Virus record (IMG/VR): IMGVR_UViG_3300007609_000003
Location: 1-64,000 of that record
Length of the DNA: 64,000 bases
DNA from: a virus
Strand: one strand, 5' to 3'
Made by a program: the position numbers and the translations under genes
Notes under the pieces: model-generated
The model's input: the letters and a program-made list of their open reading frames with translations, nothing else
Database searches by the model: none
Told to the model about the DNA's origin: nothing
In this document: piece by piece, positions 1 through 8,211 of the stretch
How the letters are laid out: every line of letters begins with the position of its first letter
Position numbering within the stretch: position 1 is the first letter of the stretch

Positions 1-227
1 CAACCCACTCGGTCCAGCAGCCTGGCGGACTCGGCACTTCGTCTGGTGGTAATCGTGACTACGTTCCAGGTCTTACTCGCGCTGCCTCTGCTCTGGGTGT
101 TACTAACTTCTTTTTAGAGGTACATCGTAATCCAGATAAATCCCCGAGTGACGGACCGAACATGCTAAAGCTTAAAGATTTTGAAAAGACAGTAGACAAC
201 ATCGTTAAATATAGGTATGAAGGATAA
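1..227 (+). CDS. kdsA: KDO-8-phosphate synthase (KdsA), C-terminal part only
   Basis: This is the last 74 codons of a gene cut by the window start; the first full codon is at position 3 and the stop TAA is at 225-227. KdsA condenses arabinose-5-phosphate and phosphoenolpyruvate to KDO-8-phosphate, the entry step to the inner-core sugar of lipopolysaccharide. The fragment shows the family's C-terminal block: THSVQQPGG, a Gly/Ser-rich loop, then DGPNM followed by LKD. It is followed after 3 bases by a tiny membrane protein, with an AAGGA site inside the kdsA end. A phage copy suggests that infection supports or alters LPS synthesis, in line with the sugar cluster at 18-26 kb. Identity is confident; whether the full gene is intact cannot be seen. 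Confidence 0.88.
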   Translation, partial: THSVQQPGGLGTSSGGNRDYVPGLTRAASALGVTNFFLEVHRNPDKSPSDGPNMLKLKDFEKTVDNIVKYRYEG

Positions 228-230
228 TAC

Positions 231-341
231 ATGCTTGAGATTATACTACTTAACATTACGTTTTGGGGAGTTTGGTATATGATATCTTCGATACCATACT
301 TCTTTGTTGCATTCGCAATCAACAACTACGAACTGGTATGA
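231..341 (+). CDS. 36-residue membrane peptide
   Basis: A short ORF starts 3 bases after the kdsA stop, with a GAAGGA ribosome site at 219-224. The peptide is almost wholly hydrophobic and aromatic, consistent with one or two short membrane segments. Tight coupling to kdsA and a good ribosome site favour a real gene. No family is recognised. Confidence 0.5.
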   Translation: MLEIILLNITFWGVWYMISSIPYFFVAFAINNYELV

Positions 342-385: not shown

Positions 386-414
386 TTGACATTTTGCCCA
401 TTTGGTATTATATA
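386..414 (+). promoter_or_regulatory. Sigma-70-type promoter for the tmRNA gene
   Basis: TTGACA (386-391) and TATATA (409-414) are separated by 17 bases. A start near 421 falls just before the acceptor half of the permuted tmRNA, so this looks like a dedicated promoter for the RNA gene. Confidence 0.75.
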
Positions 415-420
415 TAGATA

Positions 421-735
421 GTAAGCGTTGAAACAACGTGGACACATACTGGACTCGGGTTCAATTCCCGACATCTCCACCATAGATGCACTGTGGGACG
501 TTATACCAGCGTAAGCAGTGGCCACTGTAGAGGTAGAAAGCAGTGTATCTTTGATGGGGATGACATGGGATCGACAGGTGTGAAGATGAAGTGGAGTTTA
601 CCGTGTTGACCTACGTTATTCGGTCAAACTTTCTAAATGCAAACGCAAATAGAGCGCCAGCAATGGCAATTGCAGCCTAATTAGGTATGCGGGGTATAGG
701 TTCCACCTAGCAACAGAACGGGCCTACATTTAAGA
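421..735 (+). ncRNA. ssrA: Circularly permuted two-piece tmRNA
   Basis: tmRNA rescues stalled ribosomes and adds a degradation tag. The halves are in permuted order. The acceptor piece comes first: hairpin CGTTG-AAA-CAACG (426-438), T-stem TCGGG/CCCGA (455-459/467-471) around the 7-base loop TTCAATT, acceptor strand CATCTCC (472-478) and ACCA (479-482). A spacer of about 73 bases follows. The coding piece then begins GGGGATG (556-562), which pairs with CATCTCC over 7 bp with one G-U. The resume codon GCA at 639 follows CTAAAT, and the tag reads ANANRAPAMAIAA with TAA at 678-680. The 3' limit near 735 is estimated. Permuted tmRNA is typical of alphaproteobacteria, some cyanobacteria and some betaproteobacteria, so the gene points to an alphaproteobacterial source. 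Exact processed ends are not visible. Confidence 0.92.
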
Positions 736-756: not shown

Positions 757-1548
757 ATGAATAAATTTTTAGCAACAACTGCAATCGTATTCGCAGGAAC
801 TGCGGCATTCGCAGAAGATATTACTATGGATCCATATGTAGGGATTTCTGGTGAAGTTGAAACAGTAATTGCAGAAACAGCTGGAGATAAGTACGGTGCT
901 ACTACATCTTTGGACCTGGACTTTGCCGCAAGTGGCGCAGGTACGGCAAGAATGGATTTCGAAGTTGACACTACGTCAAAAGAAATTAAGTTAGACGAAT
1001 GGGCAATCGGAACTATGGTTGGCGCAGCTAACGTGAGCTTCGGCGATCAGGGTAACATTTTCGTAGAAGGTGAAACCGGAGCAACTTTGGCAGACCCAAG
1101 CATGGGTACTAGCATTTCCGTAGAAGCAATGAACGCAAAGGTTGCATTGGGCTTTGGTGATATCACTGCTGATGTTACTGACATTGAAAATATCCAAGGT
1201 TCGTATGATACGGCAATGGGTATCATCGGTGTAACAGCGTCTGGCGATTATAACCTCAACACAGAAGATTGGACAATAGGTAACCGCATTGATGCAGACC
1301 TAAATATGGCTGGGCTCGGTGTAACAACTACATACGGTTCGGCAACAGAAACTTTTGCGTTTGAAGCAGATGCAACCGCATATGGCGTTACTGCATATAT
1401 TGCCGGTGATCAAGATGAGCTAGCACAGAACGTAGGTGCTTCATACGATTACGACTTAACGAAAAGCCTTCAGCTTAATGCAGCAGCTGACTATAATATC
1501 GATACAGAAGAATTTAAACCAGAATTTGGCGTATCCTTTAACTTCTAA
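757..1548 (+). CDS. Porin-like outer-membrane beta-barrel protein
   Basis: 263 residues with a clear signal peptide (MNKFLATTAIVFAGTAAFA, cleavage about residue 19). The mature chain alternates polar and hydrophobic residues, is rich in Gly, Ala, Asp and Thr, and has no Cys. It ends in Phe (...GVSFNF), the terminal signature read by the BAM machinery. These features fit a small trimeric-porin-like barrel of the alphaproteobacterial type; the barrel is inferred from composition, not from a motif. A GAAAAG/AAGGA-type ribosome site precedes ATG 757. It lies between the tmRNA and a strong terminator, so it is probably transcribed with the tmRNA or alone. A phage porin could alter outer-membrane permeability or receptor properties during infection. 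An alternative is a virion-associated beta-rich protein. Confidence 0.65.
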   Translation: MNKFLATTAIVFAGTAAFAEDITMDPYVGISGEVETVIAETAGDKYGATTSLDLDFAASGAGTARMDFEVDTTSKEIKLDEWAIGTMVGAANVSFGDQGNIFVEGETGATLADPSMGTSISVEAMNAKVALGFGDITADVTDIENIQGSYDTAMGIIGVTASGDYNLNTEDWTIGNRIDADLNMAGLGVTTTYGSATETFAFEADATAYGVTAYIAGDQDELAQNVGASYDYDLTKSLQLNAAADYNIDTEEFKPEFGVSFNF

Positions 1549-5339: not shown

Positions 5340-6065
5340 ATGATCGAACTTTGTCCTAAGATGGCTGAAATGGCCGAACTCGCATACCTAGATGAAAAAC
5401 TAGCAAAACCAAAATACAAAAAACTTGGGTACAGCGGCCACGAGTTTCTAGAAAACGATGGAGCTCAATGTCATATTGTTTGGAATGACGATGAAATCGT
5501 TTTATGTTTTAGAGGAACCGAACCTTCAGAGCTGTCCGACATATTGGCAGATCTTAATGCATGGCCAGATCGAGCCCAAGTAGGAGGAAGAGTTCATAAC
5601 GGGTTTCAAAATGAGTTGGAAAAACTTTGGGATAATGTTATTGAAATACTCGAACAAAACAAAGATAAAGATCTATACATCACGGGTCACTCCCTTGGTG
5701 GGGCGATGGCAACCGTTGCGGCCAGCCGTTTGAAAGATGAAGTAGAAGCTCTATACACATATGGGTCTCCAAGAGTTGGTACACGAAAATTTGTAAAGTC
5801 TTTTTCAAACGTCTTACACTACCGTCATGTAAACAACAACGACGTGGTCACAGGAGTACCATTTGCACTTATGGGTTATGTTCATCATTGCCCACCGCGT
5901 TATATTAATTTCTATGGTAACATTAGAAAATCTACTCCATGGCAAAGATTTAAAGATAAATTGCGTGGTCGCTGGAAAGCACTGAAAAAAGGACAACCTT
6001 TTGATGGTGCGTACGATCATGGAATGGATTATTATTGTAAATACACGAAAGAAAACAACACATGA
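5340..6065 (+). CDS. Class 3 lipase (alpha/beta hydrolase)
   Basis: 241 residues. The nucleophile elbow GHSLGG is at residues 116-121 (Ser118). An oxyanion-region FRGTE lies near residue 58, and the likely catalytic Asp168 (NNND) and His227 (DHGMDYY) complete a Ser-Asp-His triad in the order of the Lipase_3 family. There is no signal peptide, so the enzyme would act in the cytoplasm or reach lipids through a membrane lesion. It follows a membrane coiled-coil protein and overlaps a holin-like gene by 4 bases, suggesting a role in membrane breakdown at lysis or lipid turnover. Family call strong; substrate unknown. Confidence 0.88.
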   Translation: MIELCPKMAEMAELAYLDEKLAKPKYKKLGYSGHEFLENDGAQCHIVWNDDEIVLCFRGTEPSELSDILADLNAWPDRAQVGGRVHNGFQNELEKLWDNVIEILEQNKDKDLYITGHSLGGAMATVAASRLKDEVEALYTYGSPRVGTRKFVKSFSNVLHYRHVNNNDVVTGVPFALMGYVHHCPPRYINFYGNIRKSTPWQRFKDKLRGRWKALKKGQPFDGAYDHGMDYYCKYTKENNT

Positions 6066-6974: not shown

Positions 6975-7559
6975 ATGGATAATCTAAAGAATTTGACAAA
7001 GACTGAACATCGCAATGCGGAGAGAACTGCGTTTATGAGTCGGTTGATTAAAAAGAATATTACTCCTGAGCAATACTACGTCTACATAAAGAACCAAGCA
7101 TATGTATACTCTGTCCTTGAGCACTACGCCGATATACTTGGTATATTTGACGGGGATATGATAAACTTAAAAAGATCCGTTCCTTTGTTTGAAGACTGCT
7201 TGGATATGGAAATTAAAAGACAGTTTGCGAATGCTCCTATCCTTTCAGCATCAAAGAAATATGTAGACTATATAAAAGAGATACAAAAGGATAAGGATAG
7301 ACTCTTTGCTCATATATACGTAAGACATATGGGAGATCTATCAGGTGGGCAGATCATTAAGAAACTAATCCCCGGGCCAACAAATCTTTACGAGTTTGAA
7401 GGCGATACGGAAGATCTAAAGAATAAGATACGAGAAAAATTACATGATGGGCTTGTTGATGAAGCTAAAGTTTGTTTCACTATGGTTCAAAACTTTTTAG
7501 AAGAATTGGAACAGTACTTTAATGGAACAGACACCGAAGCTGTGGAAGCGACTCAATGA
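6975..7559 (+). CDS. ho1: Heme oxygenase
   Basis: 194 residues. Heme oxygenase opens heme to biliverdin, CO and iron. The proximal His lies in TEHRNAER (His12), and the distal helix shows HMGDLSGGQIIKK (GDLSGGQ at 120-126), whose Gly residues contact heme oxygen in this family. Length is a little shorter than typical plastid-type enzymes (about 240). An AAAGGTGG ribosome site precedes ATG 6975. The gene overlaps the bilin reductase by 38 bases, a strong sign that biliverdin is handed to it. Family assignment is confident. Confidence 0.92.
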   Translation: MDNLKNLTKTEHRNAERTAFMSRLIKKNITPEQYYVYIKNQAYVYSVLEHYADILGIFDGDMINLKRSVPLFEDCLDMEIKRQFANAPILSASKKYVDYIKEIQKDKDRLFAHIYVRHMGDLSGGQIIKKLIPGPTNLYEFEGDTEDLKNKIREKLHDGLVDEAKVCFTMVQNFLEELEQYFNGTDTEAVEATQ

Positions 7560-8211
7560 ATACGCTGACTACATAGAAAAGAGGTTTGACGAAACGTTCG
7601 AGCGTTTTGAAGAACCTCGAATGAACGATCTTAAATTTGAAAATTGGAACGATACATTCTGGCGGTCGGATGTTATTCGTAAGTGCCACCTAAAGACCAT
7701 TGCACCCAATGATAATAAAGGTCTTTGGCTAATGCACATAAACGTATTTCCGAAAGAAGGTATTGAGTTACCTATCCTTGGCTTTGATATCGTCGCCGGT
7801 CCTAAAAAGATCACAGGATCCTTTATGGATTTTAGTCCCTTATATGGCTTTCCACATCCGTACTCCGAATACATGGAGATCGCCGTTGACGGTTTGGAAT
7901 GGAATAAACCACGCGAACTTCCAGATTGGGCAAAGGAGATCTTTTCTGGAGATATGATCGCGGTCGGCAACATCAATACCGAAAACGAATTAGACCAGTT
8001 TATTCATACCACTTCGCATCTTTTAGATCATTATCTGTATAATTTAAAAGAAAACGCATTTGAGTCTGGTCGTGATACGAAGATCCTATTGAATAGGTAT
8101 TGCCAAAACCAAAAGATGAACCCTCATCTGCATAGATCCATTCTTGCGATGGGTATATCAGAACAAGACAAAGATAAGTACGTTAATGAAATTCTGTTCG
8201 AAGAGATATGA
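7522..8211 (+). CDS. pcyX: Ferredoxin-dependent bilin reductase (PcyX/PcyA/PebS family)
   Basis: 229 residues. These enzymes reduce biliverdin with electrons from ferredoxin to phycobilins. The family block runs from MHINVFPK (about 71-78) through LPILGFDIVAGPKKITG to FMDFSPLYGFPHPYS; the Asp in MDFSP (about residue 103) matches the conserved catalytic Asp. No phycobiliprotein gene is seen here. The combination of heme oxygenase and an FDBR in a non-cyanobacterial T4-like phage fits the PcyX type described from uncultured marine viruses, reported to make phycoerythrobilin. The subtype is inference: PcyX, PebS and PcyA cannot be separated by eye. Start ATG 7522 lies inside the heme oxygenase gene. 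Confidence 0.85.
   Translation: MEQTPKLWKRLNEYADYIEKRFDETFERFEEPRMNDLKFENWNDTFWRSDVIRKCHLKTIAPNDNKGLWLMHINVFPKEGIELPILGFDIVAGPKKITGSFMDFSPLYGFPHPYSEYMEIAVDGLEWNKPRELPDWAKEIFSGDMIAVGNINTENELDQFIHTTSHLLDHYLYNLKENAFESGRDTKILLNRYCQNQKMNPHLHRSILAMGISEQDKDKYVNEILFEEI

Follow-up and report, generated by a model that had tools for sequence, protein, structure and literature searches.

Near the beginning of the 64,000-nucleotide viral DNA stretch analyzed here (hereafter, the window) lies a two-piece, circularly permuted tmRNA (ssrA) gene of the alphaproteobacterial type, at positions 420-735, preceded by a promoter and followed, outside the tmRNA, by an ORF for a signal-peptide protein (Table 1). The window belongs to an IMG/VR record of 201,055 bp, the last 123 bases of which repeat its first 123, so that the genome looks complete. 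The record is a large T4-like virus of marine type, with protein matches that include gp32, UvsX, DnaB-like helicase, RNR, RNA ligase, DNA polymerase and topoisomerase II. The gene directly ahead of the tmRNA, which spans the ends of the circular genome (the end of the record joined to window positions 1-232), encodes a KdsA-like 3-deoxy-8-phosphooctulonate synthase (NCBIfam E 3e-103), a phage-borne enzyme for cell-surface sugars.

Table 1. Features of the permuted tmRNA locus (window coordinates)
Feature	Position	Strand	Basis
tmRNA promoter: TTGACA (386-391), 17-nt spacer, TATATA (409-414)	386-414	+	conserved upstream of phage relatives
Acceptor piece (3' half of the tRNA-like domain) with 5' extension	420-482	+	RF04321 from 420, ARAGORN, T-stem covariation; 5' end putative
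T-arm	451-471	+	sequence
T-stem, TCGGG / CCCGA	455-459 / 467-471	+	sequence
T-loop, TTCAATT	460-466	+	sequence
Acceptor 3' strand, CATCTCC	472-478	+	sequence
Encoded ACCA	479-482	+	sequence
Spacer, 73 nt, expected to be excised	483-555	+	predicted hairpin; length varies among relatives
Coding piece: acceptor 5' strand, tRNA-like 5' half, tag frame, downstream structured part	556-735	+	RF01849 to 728, RF04321 to 680, acceptor pairing 7/7; 3' end putative
Acceptor 5' strand, GGGGATG	556-562	+	sequence
Tag reading frame, GCA AAC GCA AAT AGA GCG CCA GCA ATG GCA ATT GCA GCC TAA = ANANRAPAMAIAA	639-680	+	ARAGORN; frame shared with 46 further phage contigs
ORF, signal-peptide protein resembling outer-membrane beta-barrel (outside the tmRNA)	757-1548	+	homologues near phage tmRNA loci

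The identity of the gene is supported by two Rfam models, both lacking pseudoknots and both matched over the full length: tmRNA_permuted (RF04321) at 420-680 (117 bits, E 3.5e-22, gathering cutoff 47) and alpha_tmRNA (RF01849) at 382-728 (102.9 bits, E 5.3e-27, gathering cutoff 50). ARAGORN predicts a permuted tmRNA (tmRNA*) with the tag ANANRAPAMAIAA at 389-771 and makes no tmRNA calls when the window is block-shuffled (20 copies). A first-pass annotation had proposed a phage-borne permuted tmRNA of this type and named the alpha_tmRNA model as the check; the two Rfam matches in a T4-like genome bear this out. The limits given there were 421-735; the Rfam start is at 420 with the permuted model or at 382 with the alpha model, and the mature ends are predicted ones.

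The gene order is acceptor half, spacer, coding half, with ACCA ending at 482 and GGGGATG beginning at 556. The architecture described in the first pass, that is, the acceptor half placed first with its T-arm, CATCTCC and ACCA, the 73-base spacer, GGGGATG complementary to the acceptor strand, and a resume codon opening a 13-residue tag that ends in AIAA before TAA, is found in its entirety at the positions listed in Table 1. The resume codon is GCA (alanine), with the resume consensus at 632-649. The ends of the spacer are complementary (AGATGCACTG with CAGTGTATCT) and are predicted to lengthen the acceptor helix in the precursor; the length of the spacer is between 25 and 257 nt in phages compared with 21-48 nt in hosts.

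The two acceptor strands pair at all seven positions, with a single G.U at position 3. This G3.U70 pair, which is the alanine identity element, is invariant in the 212 host and phage genes in which the acceptor was found, and among the genes with both strands located, pairing is complete (7/7) in 145 of 145 host genes and in 66 of 67 phage genes. The acceptor variants that stay paired include GGGGATG/CATCTCC, GGGGCTG/CAGCTCC, GGGGGCG/CGCCTCC, GGGGTAG/CTACTCC and others, and the covariation in the acceptor is located at pairs 5 and 6, counted from the 5' strand. In 23 distinct host and phage sequences, five of the 12 T-stem and acceptor pairs are altered on both sides yet remain paired, and 99.6% of the cells pair. 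The covariation score for the T-stem and acceptor is 0.431, compared with 0.120 in shuffles, and none of the 500 shuffles scores as high, a count that does not amount to a probability because the 23 sequences are mutually related; the slide control, in which the covariation collapses once the partner strand is slid, preserves this relatedness.

The T-loop TTCAATT is a canonical tRNA T-loop, and so is TTCGATA at two other loci, L324 and L234; the loop is GGCGGTA or GGCAGTA in each of the 145 host genes and in the majority of the phage genes. The canonical loop may reflect a reversion or a recombination with a tRNA gene. As its origin, the phage's own tRNA genes were considered and rejected: none of the 24, which are located at 189-198 kb, apart from the tmRNA, has a 3' half that is a clear source.

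The promoter noticed in the first pass just ahead of the gene is confirmed by its conservation. In this phage, TTGACA-17-TATATA is located 36 nt before the T-arm; a simple promoter scan misses it because the scan requires T as the last base of the -10 element, but the relatives conserve the promoter: 26 out of 27 distinct upstream regions from phages carry TTGACA-17/18-TATAWA with 35-37 nt separating it from the T-arm, where shuffles would give 0.27. None of the 144 host upstream regions contains TTGACA-17-TATAWA, which points to a phage-specific transcription unit.

In the tmRNA tree, which was built without the tag, the phages lie on one side of a branch that separates them from 32 Rhodobacterales sequences (support 100/98). 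The tree is based on 150 columns and includes many weak branches as well as long ones for Melnitz, DSS3_MAL1, the placement of which is unsure, and L284, which was removed in a repeat tree. The separation of phages and hosts indicates that this is an old phage gene with a long separate history rather than a fresh capture; recent capture from a host is rejected on the basis of the tree.

The form of the tag, AN.NRAPAMA.AA, fits the tags of Rhodobacterales. When the pattern AN[D/A/E]NRAPAMAxAA was searched in 84,980 species genomes, the matches listed came from Rhodobacterales or from unnamed proteobacterial or alphaproteobacterial MAGs; among the 103 genomes with host tags in these matches, 73 carry ANDNRAPAMALAA, 29 end in ..AVAA and one in ..AMAA. 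Within the order Rhodobacterales, 308 of 395 genomes contain an AN.NRAP match, and residue 3 is Asp or Asn among the tmRNA-like matches listed, whereas Ala at this position is found in none of the 395 genomes and the ..AIAA ending in one. The comparison with host tags that the first-pass annotation called for reveals a tag of the Rhodobacterales type that departs from it in two ways, residue 3 being Ala instead of Asp/Asn, and Ile replacing the usual Leu/Val in ..AxAA. Ala at residue 3 (ANAN..) is present in 46 viral contigs besides this phage, and ANDN.. tags are present in 23 viral contigs, 18 of which have ANDNRAPAMAIAA; on the tmRNA tree, three changes between Ala and Asp are needed among the phages. 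The resume context is TTTCTAAATGCAAACGCAAAT, or nearly so, throughout the ANAN phages; among the copies listed, tag codons 1-7 never differ, and those after them vary, partly synonymously. The tag frame is conserved across the phages; towards its 3' end, third codon positions change synonymously. As a separate observation, four viral contigs (L145, L154, L165 and L150) contain permuted tmRNAs with an unusually long predicted tag, AKASKFEYMTVDFSLEAADMVA.

The chromosomal ssrA of Rhodobacterales has in common with the phage gene the gene order, the acceptor stem, the G3.U70 pair and the frame AN.NRAP.MA.AA. It differs in residue 3 and in the residue preceding the final AA, which is Leu or Val and in rare cases Met or Ile, as well as in the shorter spacer range, the GGCGGTA T-loop and the lack of the phage promoter at that place. 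The tag and the tmRNA type together suggest that the host is a bacterium of the order Rhodobacterales. The named relatives of the phage cut against this assignment: the best named phages among the matches listed for the DnaB-like helicase are Melnitz (52% identity), a phage of OM43, and T4-like cyanophages. The first 25 kb gave no megablast match to any named phage.

By far the most probable interpretation, in our view, is that this is a functional alphaproteobacterial-type two-piece ssrA in a T4-like phage, the host of which is probably a member of Rhodobacterales, and that it performs ordinary trans-translation; the T-loop, which is unlike that of the hosts, counts against this reading. A single precursor would be transcribed from the phage promoter and the spacer would be excised by the tRNA-processing enzymes of the host, for which the complementary spacer ends likely create a tRNA-like substrate at the ends to be processed. 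The acceptor stem would keep the two pieces, acceptor and coding, together. The host alanyl-tRNA synthetase would charge the phage tmRNA through G3.U70, and the host SmpB and EF-Tu would deliver it to ribosomes stuck on broken mRNAs; no SmpB was found in the phage, so that it would rely on the SmpB of the host. The ribosome would then be released and the stalled protein would receive the tag A-ANANRAPAMAIAA, the -AA end of which should remain readable by the host ClpXP. The gain for the phage, conceivably, is that ribosome rescue is kept up during the breakdown of host DNA and RNA.

An alternative, which gives concrete form to the first-pass suggestion that the tag alters what becomes of tagged proteins, is that the main value of the gene lies in the altered tag, with Ala at residue 3 causing poor SspB binding and hence slower degradation or a switch to another protease, so that the handling of truncated proteins changes. 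We regard this as unlikely but the strongest competitor to ordinary trans-translation. It draws on the presence of Ala in numerous phages and its absence from the Rhodobacterales genomes, on the fact that AT pressure does not favor the change from Asp to Ala, and on SspB, which all six Rhodobacterales genomes examined encode, with ssrA about 1-2.5 kb away in five. In the phage itself, no SspB was found. Binding of SspB requires the N-terminal module of the tag, AANDENY in E. coli (PMC8512704), so that, by analogy, the change at residue 3 could weaken delivery. Conversely, the related phages with ANDNRAPAMAIAA keep Asp, hence the change is not general, and the three events on the phage tree are few as independent support for selection; furthermore, we found no literature report on the effect of residue 3 on SspB binding in alphaproteobacteria. 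The more specific proposal, that a lineage of Rhodobacterales phages changed the tag at the end recognized by SspB (Asp/Asn to Ala), so that proteins stalling during infection receive a degron particular to the phage, evade the host adaptor and have a fate unlike that of host-tagged proteins, is slightly more doubtful still. The possible weakening of delivery by the change at residue 3 is the only part with real surprise value. With regard to the purpose of phage tmRNAs, this phage group offers a clean comparison, in which phage and host tags in the same frame are distinguished by a single position close to where the adaptor binds; the comparison is helped by the SspB-bearing hosts and by the available structures of alphaproteobacterial SspB (2QAZ, 2QAS and 2NYS).

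That the phage RNA acts as a decoy, being charged or bound by SmpB but tagging inefficiently and so inhibiting trans-translation in the host, appears improbable. The precedent is the tmRNA of mycobacteriophage DS6A, which consists of the tRNA-like part only (PMC4131195, PMC11915505), but DS6A has no coding part, whereas here the tag frame and the resume context are complete, both Rfam models are matched in full, and other phages keep the frame too. Least credible of all is a passenger or relic of a host ssrA that lacks a present function: although ssrA is a common integration site of mobile elements (PMC11915505), the compensatory changes in the stems, the intact frame, the conserved phage-specific promoter and the separate phage clade speak strongly against it.

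Phage tmRNAs of the two-piece type are already documented, and the novelty here is modest, consisting of a consistent difference between the phage tag and the tags of the likely hosts. The paper describing Melnitz (PMC9004378, published in 2022) lists 402 phages with tmRNA, with 133 unique structures, of which 53 are two-piece, 50 of these from marine or aquatic phages; it discusses similar possible roles of phage tmRNA and notes that tmRNA genes can pass between phages of different hosts. Another compilation includes 79 unique bacteriophage tmRNA sequences (PMC11915505). In our analysis, a single pattern identified at least 119 stretches with permuted tmRNA in viral contigs. The numbers for two-piece genes contradict the impression in the first pass that permuted phage tmRNAs are rare. 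The RF04321 cutoff is exceeded by Melnitz, Mosig, DSS3_MAL1, MD18 and Stenotrophomonas phage Bhz51.

Melnitz, a Methylophilales phage with an OM43 host, and pelagimyophages such as Mosig are likewise T4-like phages with a permuted alphaproteobacterial-type tmRNA, but their tags differ from the one described here, being ANDNYVPVDYALAA in Melnitz and GEDNFALAA in Mosig (ARAGORN). In Melnitz, a glutamine riboswitch has been reported together with ssrA (PMC9004378); the Rfam scan detected none in this window. The Ruegeria and Phaeobacter phages DSS3_MAL1 and MD18 also have a permuted gene, and their tag, ANTNAAPMEMAIAA, also ends in MAIAA, but they have Thr at residue 3, a different middle part of the tag and a tmRNA located beside a tRNA cluster, and are distant on the tree.

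The ORF downstream of the tmRNA has homologues on the same strand, 0.1-6 kb downstream, in 30 of 67 phage tmRNA loci, and in the five closest loci the distance between the homologue and the first base of the tag frame is 117 nt; the ORF showed no match in Pfam, PHROG or the named phages. At positions 6975-8211, the window encodes a heme oxygenase (Pfam 1.5e-22) and, next to it downstream, a ferredoxin-dependent bilin reductase (Pfam 2e-16), a cassette with the best named match in the SAR11 phage Mosig (35%). For a phage with this pair of genes, the tag and the tmRNA type are independent evidence on the host, pointing towards Rhodobacterales, and if the host indeed belongs to this order, the cassette works in a non-cyanobacterial cell. 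Another gene in the same part of the window, at 5340-6065, encodes a class 3 lipase-like protein (Pfam 1.2e-23), which is conserved at 78-82% in relatives.
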